From contig JAHCIT010000002.1 in the NCBI GenBank assembly GCA_026129095.1, forward strand, positions 124,001-188,000: a stretch of DNA of 64,000 bases. The letters run 5' to 3'. The notes under the pieces were generated by a model. The model was not told the origin of the DNA and did not search any database. It worked only from the letters and a program-made list of their open reading frames with translations. Shown here in pieces: positions 52,635 to 58,457 of this stretch. The stretch is from Deltaproteobacteria bacterium (GTDB lineage: Bacteria; JAGRBM01; JAHCIT01). Position 1 is the stretch's first letter; every line of letters starts with the position of its first letter. Position numbers and translations under genes: made by a program.

Positions 52635-53612
52635 ATGCATGTAACGCGTGAACAGCTCGAAACCTTCCTCGACAGGGTTCGGAGCCAGACGAAAGACCCC
52701 AAAGCGGGGCTGTTCGGACCTGGCTCCATGATGTGGATGATTGGCCGGGAAATGATCGGCGGCCTGGGGGGCGGGCGGGCGCTCCTCCTTCAGACAGCCC
52801 ACCCGTTCGTGGCCCACGCGGTCGAACAGCATTCCAGAGTCCGCGAGGATCCCCACGGGCGGGGCGAGCGGACCTTCAAGAACGTGCTGGCCATGAACTT
52901 CGGCGACCTGGAAGCCGCCCTGCGGGCCGCCCGGCGGGTTCATGCCGTCCACGAGCGCATTCACGGAAAGATCACCGAGCGCATCGGCGCATACGATCTG
53001 GGGACGCCCTATGACGCCAACGATGACGATGCGCTCCTCTGGGTCCATGCAACCCTGTGGGACACCAGCGTCCAGATGTATGAGCTGATCGTCCGGCCCC
53101 TCTCTTCCGAAGAGAAGGAAAAATACTACCAGGAGACCAAGCTGTTCGCGTATCTCTTTGGTGTCCCCGACCGCATCATTCCGCCCAACTGGAACGAGTT
53201 CATGGACTACAACCGGAAGATGTGGGAGTCGGACATCCTCACCGTCGGGAAACCTTCGGCCGAGATCGCCCATTTCGTCCTGCAGCCGCCCAAGCCGGAG
53301 CTCCAGCCGGTCATGGACTGGTTCAAGATCATCACCGCCGGACTCATGCCCAGGCGCATCCGGCACGAATACCGCTTTCCGTACGGGGCGGCCGAGAAGG
53401 CCGTTTTTGAAGCCAGTATCCGTGCCCTGCGCGCCGCTTATCCCCGCCTCCACCGGCGCCTGCGGTTTTCGCCCGCCTACATCAAGGCGCGCGAGCGGAT
53501 GGGCATGGCTTATCCCACCGGACCCGTCGATTCGTGGCTCGGCCGGTTCATGGACCGGCAGATGGGGCAGCCCGGCCTCACGGTACCGGCCGCCGCCCGG
53601 TCAGCGGCCTGA
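52635..53612 (+). CDS. DUF2236 / MpaB-like oxygenase family protein
   Basis: A 325-residue protein of the DUF2236 family. Relatives include latex-clearing protein-type and MpaB-type haem or metal oxygenases. Visible family points are GPGSMMWMIGREMIGGLGGGRALLLQTAHPFVAHAVEQHS (in part, about 28-67), FGDLEAALRAARRVHAVHERIHG with its histidines (about 95-117) and WVHATLWDTSVQMYELIV (about 136-153). These histidines are likely cofactor or metal ligands. It is the sole gene behind the twin-operator promoter. Its 3' end overlaps the convergent glycosyltransferase gene by 12 bases. The substrate is unknown. Confidence 0.87.
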   Translation: MHVTREQLETFLDRVRSQTKDPKAGLFGPGSMMWMIGREMIGGLGGGRALLLQTAHPFVAHAVEQHSRVREDPHGRGERTFKNVLAMNFGDLEAALRAARRVHAVHERIHGKITERIGAYDLGTPYDANDDDALLWVHATLWDTSVQMYELIVRPLSSEEKEKYYQETKLFAYLFGVPDRIIPPNWNEFMDYNRKMWESDILTVGKPSAEIAHFVLQPPKPELQPVMDWFKIITAGLMPRRIRHEYRFPYGAAEKAVFEASIRALRAAYPRLHRRLRFSPAYIKARERMGMAYPTGPVDSWLGRFMDRQMGQPGLTVPAAARSAA

Positions 53613-55652
53613 CCCCCGGCGCACCGAACTCCGGCAGCGGCGTTCGCCCGGTTGCGGCAGCGGACAGTCGAGAAAGTTTTCCCTGCCCTCTGCCGTCACG
53701 AACCGCACCCGGATGGGAGCCGGGGCATAGGCCCCCAGTATCCAGGATTCGCGGCCGAGCAGCGCGGATATCTCCCGTTCGGCAGGGCTCCGGGGCCGGT
53801 AGGCCAGTGTGAGCGCACCCGACTCCCGGTACAGTTCCAGATGGTCACCGCCCTCGCGCAGCAGTTCATCACCAGAATAAACCTTTTCCAGAATGGCGAT
53901 CTCGGTATCGAGGAGCGAGGGCTCCGGCCGGAAGATAAAACCCATTTTCCCCTCGTCATCCAGAAACACGCTAACCCCTTCAGGCGGGGGCTGGTCCGTA
54001 AACTCCCTCACTGGCGGTTCTGCCACCCGGTCCGCATCCACGAACTCATCTGCCGGGTAGCCAGATGGATCACCCGCGGATTCTGCCTCTTCCGTTCCTT
54101 CTCCAGATACAGCCTCCTCCCCCTCCAATGGCTTCGCAACCGGCACGCCTGTCAGGTGCTTCGCCTCCATCCAGCGGAAGCTCGGCGTTCCATCCGATGG
54201 CCAGACCTCGGCGGGGTACACATCCACCGGCAGCACCCGCCGGTAAGTAACAGGCGTCAGGTCAATTCCCTGCGGCGGCGACCCGGCCAGAAAGCCATCC
54301 AGCCGGAACAGGCCCAGCACTTCCGGGCGGTCGATCCGGAACCACCGGAGATTCGGCGCGATCTGCCGGTCAAAGCCCCGTGGCACCCAGAGGTTCGTGC
54401 CGACAGCAACGGTCCGGTCCGCCGGAAACCGGCGGGAGAACTCCCTCAGTTCGCCGGCGGCCTGACGGTAGTAGTCGAGCCGGGGCTGGTAGAACTGGCG
54501 GTCGGCTGCGAGCTGGCCGCTGATACCCCAGATGGCGGCGCCGCAGAACAGCACGGCGAGGCCGCCCGCCAGCACTGGCTGCCGGAGCCGGGCCAGACGC
54601 ACCGCCGAGGCAAAACCAAGCGCAGTCACCAGCGGCAGGTTGAGATAGTCGTGCAGCGGCAGCGAGCCGAAAAAATAGAGGCCCGTCTGTATCCCAGCCA
54701 CCGCTGCCAGCAGGCGGCAGGCAGTGCGGATACCAGCAGGGCGCGGATCCTCAGGCTGGAAAAGAAGCTCCCACAGGCCGATCACCAGCACCGGCAGCAT
54801 CATCATCCGCCGCCAGTCGCCCGCCACCGCCGCCACACGGTCCCAGAGCGCGCCGCCGTCCCAGAACCCCGACACCGAATGGAACAGGAACTGCCCGGCG
54901 AACCTGACCAGACCGAACAGGGGGCCGCCTCCGGCGGAAATATAGAAGGCAAGGAGAAGCAGGATCCCGGCGGCGTTCAGCGACAGAACGCCGGCCGCAA
55001 GGCGCCCGGCCCCCGGCGGGCGGTCACGATCAATGAGGAGATGGATCACGCAGACCAGTGTCGCGGCAAAACACAGCCAGCCGGTCAGGAGTCCGAGCAG
55101 CGACAGGGCGCCAAAGGTCATGCCGCCCAGGGGCACGATCGCGCTCCGGTAGCGGAGGTAGGCCCAGATGATCGCCGCCTGCCCGGCCACGACCGGCGCG
55201 GCAACGAGATCGCCCGCACGGCTGGCGAGCACCATGCCAGGCAGCAGGGCCAGCAGGAAGACGGAAAACAGGCTCACTCCGGGCAGGTCGTCGTCAGCCC
55301 GGCGGGCGATCAGCCAGAGCAGGATGACCAGCGCCATCGAAGCGGCCAGTTCCGGCATCCGGGCCGCCCAGTAGTTCTCTCCGAAAACGGTCATCGAGGC
55401 CGCGATCGCCAGCGGGTAGAGCGGCGGGTGATTCGTGTAGTAGCCCGGCTCCGAAAGCCGGCGTTCCACCGGCTGCATCAGCCAGCCGCCGGTAAAGGGC
55501 CCCTCCGCGAGATACTGCTCCGCGACGCGGACATAGACATTGTCACGCCAGAGCCCCAGTTCTTTCCGCCAGTCGGCCTGCGACACCCACAAGCGCGGCA
55601 CGATCACGGCGGCAGCGACCGGCAGCCAGAGGAAAATGGCCCTACTCCGCAT
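53601..55652 (-). CDS. GT-C-type membrane glycosyltransferase (PMT/ArnT-like) with a large extracytoplasmic C-domain
   Basis: A 683-residue membrane protein. Residues 1-385 hold about ten membrane segments, with the first extracytoplasmic loop containing GLWRDNVYVRVAEQYLAEG (34-51 region), the place of the catalytic Asp in GT-C enzymes, and YYTNHPPLYP (71-80). These enzymes move sugars from lipid-phosphate donors to proteins or lipids. Residues 395-683 are soluble: a block with TNLWVPRGF (419-427), an acidic linker (510-560) and a second block ending CPLPQPGERRC (663-673). The same blocks form the neighbouring lipoprotein. The ATG of MRSRAIF with GGAG upstream overlaps that gene by 11 bases. 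Confidence 0.8.
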   Translation of the reverse strand: MRSRAIFLWLPVAAAVIVPRLWVSQADWRKELGLWRDNVYVRVAEQYLAEGPFTGGWLMQPVERRLSEPGYYTNHPPLYPLAIAASMTVFGENYWAARMPELAASMALVILLWLIARRADDDLPGVSLFSVFLLALLPGMVLASRAGDLVAAPVVAGQAAIIWAYLRYRSAIVPLGGMTFGALSLLGLLTGWLCFAATLVCVIHLLIDRDRPPGAGRLAAGVLSLNAAGILLLLAFYISAGGGPLFGLVRFAGQFLFHSVSGFWDGGALWDRVAAVAGDWRRMMMLPVLVIGLWELLFQPEDPRPAGIRTACRLLAAVAGIQTGLYFFGSLPLHDYLNLPLVTALGFASAVRLARLRQPVLAGGLAVLFCGAAIWGISGQLAADRQFYQPRLDYYRQAAGELREFSRRFPADRTVAVGTNLWVPRGFDRQIAPNLRWFRIDRPEVLGLFRLDGFLAGSPPQGIDLTPVTYRRVLPVDVYPAEVWPSDGTPSFRWMEAKHLTGVPVAKPLEGEEAVSGEGTEEAESAGDPSGYPADEFVDADRVAEPPVREFTDQPPPEGVSVFLDDEGKMGFIFRPEPSLLDTEIAILEKVYSGDELLREGGDHLELYRESGALTLAYRPRSPAEREISALLGRESWILGAYAPAPIRVRFVTAEGRENFLDCPLPQPGERRCRSSVRRGSGR

Positions 55653-56478
55653 CCAGCTCCTCGTAATGACAGTTCTGGACCTCGCCGGACGGCATGGGAC
55701 ACTGGAACATGCCCCGGCGGTTGTCCATCCAGACGGCATGACCGGTAACGGGAACCTTCGCACCGGAACCCAGCAAAAACGGGTAGATTTTGACCACCGG
55801 ATACAGGGCCCGGAACAGGAGCGACGGCCGCGTATACCGTAGCACCAGCAGGTCGCCGTGGGTGACGATCTCAAGCCCCTCGCGCCAGTTCCGGATCAGT
55901 TCATGCCCCCGGTATTCCCGGCCAGCGATGGAAAACACGGACTCTGAAAGGGATATCCACGGCCGGAAGCCAAGTTCCAGCCCTCCCTTGTCGTCAATCA
56001 CGATCCGCCGGGGAGCCGTCGCCATCGTGGCATGAAAGAGCGTCTGCTCGTTCCGGAACCTGAGATCAGTCCACCTAACACGCTCGTCGGGCCTGAGCGG
56101 ACTGCTCCCAAGCCGGATCAGCATCTTTCCGGGGTTCTCCCGCGGCTGGTGCGAAGGGGTCGGATCCTCGTCCTCCGGCATGTTCACGGCGAGGTAGGCG
56201 TCCAGCCGGTAAAACGGGAGTAGCCGCTCCTCGCCCACATGCACCAGCGTGAGGCGCGGCGATATCTCCGCCGCGAACCCGCGCGGCAGCCAGAGGTTCG
56301 TCGCCACCGTCAGCTTGCGGTCCGGAGGAAACGGCTCGATCTGTTTCCGGAGCTCGGCCTCGAACTCCCGTCGCCAGGGACTGCCCGCGCCATGCCCCTC
56401 GCCACGCCCGTCACAGGCGGCAAGCAGCGAAATTGCCACCAGTGCCAGAAGCGTCTTCCAGTTCTTGTGCAGGCTCAC
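55642..56478 (-). CDS. Lipoprotein made of the domain found at the C-terminus of the adjacent glycosyltransferase
   Basis: A 278-residue predicted lipoprotein: signal core LLALVAISLLAAC, lipidated Cys22. The mature part repeats the C-terminal region of the downstream glycosyltransferase. FPPDRKLTVATNLWLPRGF (50-68) matches FPADRTVAVGTNLWVPRGF there. IDDKGGLELGFRPWISLSES and YRGHELIRN-WREGLEI also have counterparts, and both end in CP-x-P-x6-C (260-270 here). The start is GTG one base after the previous stop. It is translated in tight coupling with the genes on both sides. I know no name for this domain; a role in presenting or binding the glycosylated target is inference. Confidence 0.78.
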   Translation of the reverse strand: MSLHKNWKTLLALVAISLLAACDGRGEGHGAGSPWRREFEAELRKQIEPFPPDRKLTVATNLWLPRGFAAEISPRLTLVHVGEERLLPFYRLDAYLAVNMPEDEDPTPSHQPRENPGKMLIRLGSSPLRPDERVRWTDLRFRNEQTLFHATMATAPRRIVIDDKGGLELGFRPWISLSESVFSIAGREYRGHELIRNWREGLEIVTHGDLLVLRYTRPSLLFRALYPVVKIYPFLLGSGAKVPVTGHAVWMDNRRGMFQCPMPSGEVQNCHYEELDAE

Positions 56479-56479
56479 G

Positions 56480-56719
56480 TCAGGTCCGGTCAATTTCGTC
56501 GGGGGTGACGGAAACAAAGCGGCGGTAAGTGCCGATCAGGCTCTGCTCGCAGTCTAGTGCGACGAGAAACCAGTCGCCCTTGAACGGGCCTGTCACGATA
56601 ATTCCGGCAGCCCCTTCGCGGCCGTCCACCTGGAAGGGCCAGGCGCGGCTGGCATTATCGTGCTTCAGGCGGCTGATACGGACACGGGTGCCTTTTCTCA
56701 GTTCCGCTGCTACAGCCAT
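56480..56719 (-). CDS. Small protein, possibly SH3/KOW-like beta-barrel
   Basis: A 79-residue protein with a beta-rich pattern (LRKGTRVRISRLKH, GAAGIIVTGPFKGDWFLVALDCEQ in part, TYRRFVSVTPDEI). The spacing of Gly and hydrophobic residues resembles small SH3-like or KOW folds, though no family was recognised. The ATG with AAGGCAGG ten bases upstream is used; 15 more codons are open. Its TGA is followed by one base and then the GTG of the lipoprotein gene, so it heads the lipoprotein-glycosyltransferase unit. It is divergent from the MFS transporter. Confidence 0.6.
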   Translation of the reverse strand: MAVAAELRKGTRVRISRLKHDNASRAWPFQVDGREGAAGIIVTGPFKGDWFLVALDCEQSLIGTYRRFVSVTPDEIDRT

Positions 56720-56842: not shown

Positions 56843-58042
56843 ATGCCCCAGCGGAAACAGCTATTCATCATTTTTACCACGGTGTTCGTGGACCTGATCG
56901 GCTTCGGGATCGTGATCCCGCTGATCGGCCTGTACGGAAAGCACTATGGTGCCAGCGGGGCCGTTCTCGGGGCGCTCGCCGCCGCCTACTCCCTGTTCCA
57001 GTTCATATTCGCGCCAGTCTGGGGGCGCCTGTCGGACCGTTTCGGGCGGAGGCCGATCCTGCTGGTCACGCTGGCCGGTCAGGCCGTGTCGTATCTCCTG
57101 TTTGGACTGGCCGGGAACCTCGAACTGCTGTTCATCAGCCGCTGCCTCGCCGGACTGTTCGCCGGCAACATCGGCACGGCGATGGCCTACATCGCCGACA
57201 TCACGACCAGGGAAGACCGTGCCCGCGGCATGGCGGTCGTGGGAGCATCCTTCGGTATCGGCTTCACGCTGGGGCCGCCGCTCGGCGGGATTGCGGCGGC
57301 GAAGCTGGGGCTTTCGGCCCCCGGTCTTATCGCCGCCGGGCTGTGCGCGATGAACTTCCTGGCGGCGGTCGTCCGGCTTCCCGAGTCACTCCCGAAGGAA
57401 CTCCGCCGCAAGTCCGCCGGGCAGTCCCTTTCGCCGGTGGATTTCGGCACCCTGACGGCCGTCTGGAAGCATGACGAACTCAGGCTGCTGGTGTTCACTT
57501 TCGCGGTGGCAAGCTTCTGCTTCTCAAACATGGAGCAGCCGATGCCGCTGCTGATCCAGCGGCAGCTCGGCATCCCGGTGGAGGAGGCCGGCTACCGGGC
57601 CGGGATGGTTCTCATGGCGGTCGGCCTGATGAGCGCGCTCACGCAGGGGGTGTTTGTCCGCCGCTATGGCCAGCGGTTCGGCGAGCGCCGCCTCATGCTG
57701 ATCGGGCTTTCGGGATACGTCCTGCCGGTGGCACTCTGGCCACTCGTTTCCTCATACCCCTTCTATTTCCTGACGGGAATGATGATCGGAACGGCCAACG
57801 GGCTCGCAAACCCGAACATGATGGGACTGATTTCCCGCAACACCGCCGCCCACGAGCAGGGAGCCGTGCTCGGCCTGACGCAGGGACTGGGAAGTTTCGG
57901 CCGCGTTCTGGGCCCGATGTTCGGCCTGGTGGCCTTCGAGACGAACTACCGGATCCCGTTTTTCACGGCGGCCGCACTCTGGACGGTGCTGGCCCTGCTC
58001 AACCGCCGGCCGGGTCCGCCGCCGGAAACAGTCCGTCAGTGA
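56843..58042 (+). CDS. Major facilitator superfamily transporter (TetA/drug-efflux-like)
   Basis: A 399-residue inner-membrane transporter with 12 predicted helices. The loop 2-3 motif GRLSDRFGRRPILL (about 65-78) is the MFS signature A. The first helix, FTTVFVDLIGFGIVIPLIGLYG (about 10-31), and the SRCLAGLFAGNIGTAMAYIADI segment (in part) closely follow tetracycline/multidrug efflux DHA1 members. Substrate and direction are not determinable. The last 44 bases overlap the convergent lipoprotein gene. Confidence 0.93.
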   Translation: MPQRKQLFIIFTTVFVDLIGFGIVIPLIGLYGKHYGASGAVLGALAAAYSLFQFIFAPVWGRLSDRFGRRPILLVTLAGQAVSYLLFGLAGNLELLFISRCLAGLFAGNIGTAMAYIADITTREDRARGMAVVGASFGIGFTLGPPLGGIAAAKLGLSAPGLIAAGLCAMNFLAAVVRLPESLPKELRRKSAGQSLSPVDFGTLTAVWKHDELRLLVFTFAVASFCFSNMEQPMPLLIQRQLGIPVEEAGYRAGMVLMAVGLMSALTQGVFVRRYGQRFGERRLMLIGLSGYVLPVALWPLVSSYPFYFLTGMMIGTANGLANPNMMGLISRNTAAHEQGAVLGLTQGLGSFGRVLGPMFGLVAFETNYRIPFFTAAALWTVLALLNRRPGPPPETVRQ

Positions 58043-58457
58043 TCAGCCAGTCGCCTGCCTTGTAGTCCCACAAGAGGTCCAGGTACATGCGCTTGACCAC
58101 GATGGAGTTCCGCGCCGTGTAGTCCATCGCGATCCGGGTGCTGGCCCGCTTGGTGTTTTCCTTGCCCTTTTCATCCCGAACCCACGACCACTTTTCGAGA
58201 TCGATCTGCGTTACCTTGATGTTCCGGGCCCGGAGATCCTCGACAAACTTCTGCCGGATCGACGGATGCACATAGAGCGACGCTCCCCGGCCCTCGTCGG
58301 CATGTGAATGCAGGTAGCCGCCCATGAACTCCCGCACGGCTGACTGGAGCATGTCCGACCGCTCGATGGTGGGGTCGATCATCCGCATGAGCGGCGCGCA
58401 ACCGGCCGCCAGCAGAAAGGCCGCCGGGAGGACCGACAGGCAGAGCGCGCGGTTCAC
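57999..58457 (-). CDS. Putative lipoprotein, unknown function
   Basis: A 152-residue protein with a clear lipoprotein signal (LPAAFLLAAGC, Cys at about 20) and a small alpha/beta mature domain. VREFMGGYLHSHADEGRGA is followed by IRQKFVEDLRARNIKVTQIDLEKWSW (in part), IAMDYTARNSIVVKRMYLDLLWDYKAGDWLI (in part) and a Gly/Pro end. The pattern could suit an NTF2-like or nuclear-transport-factor-type fold but is not assigned. The GTG start overlaps the stop of the small membrane protein gene upstream (GTGA). Confidence 0.68.
   Translation of the reverse strand: MNRALCLSVLPAAFLLAAGCAPLMRMIDPTIERSDMLQSAVREFMGGYLHSHADEGRGASLYVHPSIRQKFVEDLRARNIKVTQIDLEKWSWVRDEKGKENTKRASTRIAMDYTARNSIVVKRMYLDLLWDYKAGDWLITDGLFPAADPAGG

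Follow-up and report, generated by a model that had tools for sequence, protein, structure and literature searches.

The analysed stretch of DNA (the window, 64,000 nucleotides of contig JAHCIT010000002.1 from a Deltaproteobacteria bacterium) carries a minus-strand unit in which a small open reading frame (ORF) is followed by a lipoprotein gene (LP) and by a gene for a many-helix membrane protein of GT-C type (GT1) (Table 1). The earlier note described the LP and GT1 genes as overlapping or nearly touching; the overlap is 11 bases long, and the boundaries that it gave for the pair (53601-56478) hold. A single base separates the end of the small ORF from the start of LP. Position-specific GC was coding-like for all three ORFs, with values of 0.64/0.50/0.70 for the small one. 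The product of the small ORF is probably beta-rich, judged by eye, and showed no match in Pfam, NCBIfam or PDB and no relative in 386 genomes.

We looked for a glycan cluster around LP and GT1, and the surrounding genes were housekeeping genes. An MPAB/Lcp (rubber-oxygenase type) protein at window positions 52635-53612 is convergent with GT1, and the two gene ends overlap by 12 bases. The genome of an order-mate has four strong homologs of this protein, three of them in tandem. At 57999-58457, downstream of secA, lies a second small lipoprotein-like ORF with a signal ending LLAAGC and no Pfam family above its cut-off.

Table 1. Features of the LP-GT1 unit (window coordinates) and of the two paralogous loci elsewhere in the source genome (locus coordinates).
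Feature	Position	Strand	Details
Small ORF, head of unit	56480..56719	minus	79 aa from ATG; no known family
LP, lipoprotein	55642..56478	minus	GTG 56478 to stop 55642; 278 aa
LP signal peptide and lipobox L-A-A-C	56413..56478	minus	Cys22 codon 56415-56413, Asp at +2; direct sequence reading
Shared domain, free lipid-anchored copy in LP	55666..56370	minus	homology to GT1 domain
Overlap of LP stop and GT1 start	55642..55652	minus	11 bases; translational coupling likely
GT1, GT-C-like membrane protein	53601..55652	minus	ATG 55652 to stop 53601; 683 aa; PMT_2 (PF13231) at residues ~74-207
GT1 membrane part, residues 1-385	54498..55652	minus	hydropathy and Pfam match
Shared domain, enzyme-bound copy, GT1 residues 396-674	53631..54467	minus	homology; acidic low-complexity insert
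C-P-x-P-x6-C motif of GT1 domain	53631..53666	minus	probable disulfide
GT3	L014:5233-7146	plus	637 aa; intact
GT2	L013:7969-5974 (G000:C2, about 374-376 kb)	minus	broken into two frames

Direct reading of LP supported the lipid anchor that had been proposed for it: the protein has a type II signal peptide with a lipobox cysteine (MSLHKNWKTLLALVAISLLAAC), which ends L-A-A-C at Cys22 and is followed by Asp at +2. Asp at this position is an inner-membrane retention mark in enterobacteria, a rule that is not universal. By the enterobacterial rule, LP would stay next to GT1 in the inner membrane.

Mature LP and a C-terminal stretch of ~280 residues in GT1 (residues 396-674), which the earlier note had judged by eye to be related, are homologous by four methods. 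The Smith-Waterman score was 215, while 2000 shuffles gave a mean of 36, an SD of 5.8 and a maximum of 75. BLASTP gave 79 bits with an E-value of 1e-21, and the profile-profile comparison that the note had proposed, run with hhalign, gave a probability of 98.6% and an E-value of 1e-15. The fourth method used two further GT-C paralogs with the shared domain, GT2 and GT3, encoded elsewhere in the source genome. A profile built from these two only recovered LP with 135 bits (5e-41) and GT1 with 112 bits (7e-34), and the best of 400 shuffles reached 4.2 bits. The domain is thus real and extends well beyond the LP-GT1 pair. It is also unnamed, as had been supposed: the LP and GT1 domain stretches matched no Pfam or NCBIfam model, and a profile of all four copies found no match among solved chains (PDB), with a best E-value of only 0.19.

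LP is the one stand-alone copy of the domain in the source genome, and no lipoprotein copy was found beside GT2 or GT3 when both loci were searched. The frame of GT2 breaks where the heptamer CTGGCGG stands three times (about L013:7551-7571). Possible causes are an error of sequencing or assembly, decay into a pseudogene, or a slippage-prone site.

The motifs quoted in the earlier note are present in LP and GT1, and one of them, the C-terminal C-P-x-P-x6-C, proved invariant in all four copies. The TNLWxP motif, an L-x4-L-x4-A block, D-x2-P, RP and LG are likewise invariant, with RP preceding the C-terminal beta-rich half of the domain. The block given in the note as F-x-RLD-x2-LA is common to LP and GT1, but its true form is [hydrophobic]-[F/Y]-RLD-x2-LA with the first F in LP only, and its RLD is not retained in GT2 and GT3. 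GT1 is the only copy with an acidic insert of low complexity, about 50 residues long. Each copy has just two cysteines, both in C-P-x-P-x6-C; in LP they are Cys238 and Cys248, counted from the residue behind the lipid-bearing Cys. The invariance of this sole pair is consistent with a disulfide formed in an oxidising extracytoplasmic compartment, and together with the lipoprotein homolog it makes the GT1 sequence consistent with an extracytoplasmic location of the C-terminal part.

AlphaFold models were built from the window sequences only, with two-row alignments, and both models shared one alignment. Their confidence was low (pLDDT 52 for LP and 38 for the GT1 domain), which is too poor for fold identification or comparison. 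Weak as they are, they point to a domain that opens with alpha/beta elements and is rich in beta structure in its second half. Both have the same element order in the C-terminal half, which is not independent support because they were built on one alignment. A Foldseek search with the LP model gave no match below 0.001, as expected for a model of pLDDT 52.

The membrane part of GT1 matched PMT_2 (PF13231) with 36.3 bits (cut-off 26.1, E 8e-9), and it shares with PMT_2/GT39-like GT-C proteins a membrane core of many helices that includes HPPLYP and FGE motifs. The earlier note put the membrane helices of GT1 at about ten; hydropathy gives 8 in GT1 and 10 in GT3. In the GT-C enzymes PimE, ArnT, ALG6 and PglB the first outside loop carries at its tip the Asp that serves as catalytic base (PMC12041525). 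The acidic motif of this loop reads RDN in GT1, RNE in GT3 and RQN in GT2, while a canonical GT-C protein of the source genome has RDE; several other GT-C proteins of this genome keep DE or DD there. In the loop alignment, which is uncertain, Asp37 of GT1 falls on the Asp of the canonical protein, with Asn in GT3 and Gln in GT2. GT1 may be active as a glycosyltransferase, while activity of GT2 and GT3 is doubtful. Since the motif is degenerate across the three proteins, sugar transfer as such is uncertain.

To place the domain in other organisms, its profile was run against 386 other genomes, in which no relative was found. The best outside match (E 0.003) was an NAD-synthetase-like protein, which we took as chance. 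No relative was found in GTDB contigs with degenerate patterns for the domain and for the whole glycosyltransferase, scans that need exact peptide words and that distant relatives can escape, nor in viral contigs, nor in plasmids by tblastn. Among the genomes searched, the phylum is represented by two only, the source genome and one order-mate; the latter has 17 PMT_2 matches, none with the shared domain. Judged from these searches, the domain family is confined to its lineage or has hardly been sampled.

The earlier note had read the LP and GT1 domains as the products of a local duplication, and this was not borne out. Pairwise identity among the four copies is 31-34%, an about equal divergence, and in alignment with LP both GT2 (287) and GT3 (242) outscore the neighbour GT1 (215). 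The likelihoods of the three quartets lay within one unit; the pairing of LP with GT1 was the least supported and none was rejected statistically. A recent duplication of the GT1 domain into LP is not supported by such a star-like quartet of equally diverged copies, and the comparison supports an old separation of the four in a star-like radiation. The LP signal peptide stands at nearly the place that the last membrane helix takes in the paralogs: it is 35 residues from TNLW, and the helix of the GT proteins 41-44 residues. When the C-terminal domain of a GT-C protein lies outside, the last helix runs from inside to outside, as a signal peptide does. From this position and orientation, LP may descend from a truncated GT-C protein whose last helix turned into a lipoprotein signal.

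The best reading of these sequences is a small lineage-specific GT-C-like (PMT_2) family, with three members in the source genome, each carrying a C-terminal, presumably extracytoplasmic domain of ~250 residues. Accessory modules on GT-C enzymes are known from mycobacteria. EmbC and AftD carry carbohydrate-binding modules that are C-terminal or periplasmic (PMC3044687, PMC12802301), and AftA and AftB have been proposed to obtain such a module from the lipoproteins LpqZ and FecB (PMC12802301). GT1 resembles EmbC and AftD, as far as the available text of these sources describes them, in joining a GT-C membrane core to an extracytoplasmic accessory domain. It differs in that its domain, like that of LP, has no sequence similarity to any solved chain and in that binding by the domain would be the conjectural part of the likeness; the same text describes no free homologous copy of the EmbC or AftD module, whereas the GT1 domain has such a free copy in LP. 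LP beside GT1 likewise recalls LpqZ and FecB, each a lipoprotein proposed as the trans-acting module of a GT-C enzyme, but that account does not describe these lipoproteins as homologous to an enzyme domain, while the LP and GT1 forms are one domain. At most, then, LP and GT1 would be a functional parallel of these systems and not members of them.

We tentatively propose, as the likeliest of the readings but one that may well prove wrong, a binding role for the domain: the copies on the enzymes would engage an acceptor or partner in cis, and the LP copy would do so in trans. The acceptor could be a protein or an envelope glycan still being extended. The enzyme-borne domain would present it in cis to the membrane active site; LP, probably made from the same transcript as GT1 and probably anchored at the outside of the inner membrane, would act in trans as a subunit or would tune the enzyme through competition for the acceptor. 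The four-method homology, the three GT-C paralogs with one free copy, the cysteine pair, the 11-base overlap, the lipobox with Asp at +2, the helix register and the EmbC/AftD and LpqZ/FecB precedents all point this way. Against it count the low-confidence models without a Foldseek match, the lack of a lipoprotein beside GT2 and GT3, the degenerate loop motif and the housekeeping neighbourhood. A more far-reaching form of the proposal makes the domain a new extracytoplasmic family and LP the shared trans-acting acceptor-binding subunit of the three membrane glycosyltransferases, or their competitor; this form we regard as rather unlikely.

A structural role would also bring the domain and the lipoprotein together. 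GT-C proteins usually have a soluble C-terminal domain, and the present one may be a divergent version of it that stabilises the membrane part. In this reading LP would help GT1 to dimerise or assemble and would not bind a substrate. This would suit a domain that begins right after the last membrane helix, a lipoprotein co-encoded with GT1, and the helix-strand-helix-strand order of the weak LP model, an order typical of common GT-C C-terminal domains. However, identity with the common domain was rejected at the profile level: hhalign gave a probability under 1% for both of two other GT-C proteins, compared by their C-terminal domains, and no similarity was found in 319 ORFs around PMT_2 matches. 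GT1 also differs in its C-terminal domain from the PMT_2 proteins compared. We consider a structural role improbable, to a similar degree as the shared-subunit form above.

Two further explanations we hold to be clearly less probable. LP may be what decay has left of a GT-C gene once duplicated in tandem, its membrane part gone and the remaining domain exported with no dedicated role; the place of its signal peptide near that expected for a last helix, the frameshift in GT2 and the absence of the LP-GT1 pair from the other genomes searched agree with this. However, LP keeps the TNLW, FRP and CP-x-P-C positions, an open frame and coding-like GC despite equal divergence, and its lipobox is good. 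Decay over such divergence would not preserve motifs, frame and lipobox, which makes it unlikely. An equally low likelihood attaches to the GT-C-like proteins being glycosyltransferases no longer, with the membrane part and domain serving as a receptor or scaffold and LP as its soluble counterpart. The first-outer-loop acidic residues (RDN/RNE/RQN) are indeed not conserved, but GT1 exceeds the Pfam cut-off and retains the PMT_2 features YYTNHPPLYP, FGEN and LHDY, and the uncertain loop alignment sets its Asp37 on the canonical Asp.

What is new here is an unnamed, lineage-restricted domain, while the arrangement of a GT-C enzyme with an accessory module is known. Unusually, one and the same domain occurs both as the free lipoprotein and as the module on the enzyme. 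If the binding proposal is true, an accessory domain of a GT-C enzyme would stand free as a lipoprotein co-encoded with the enzyme. The pair would then be a genetic counterpart of a recently proposed scheme in which membrane glycosyltransferases receive the binding modules that they lack from lipoproteins, and an undescribed domain from a barely sampled bacterial phylum would gain a name.
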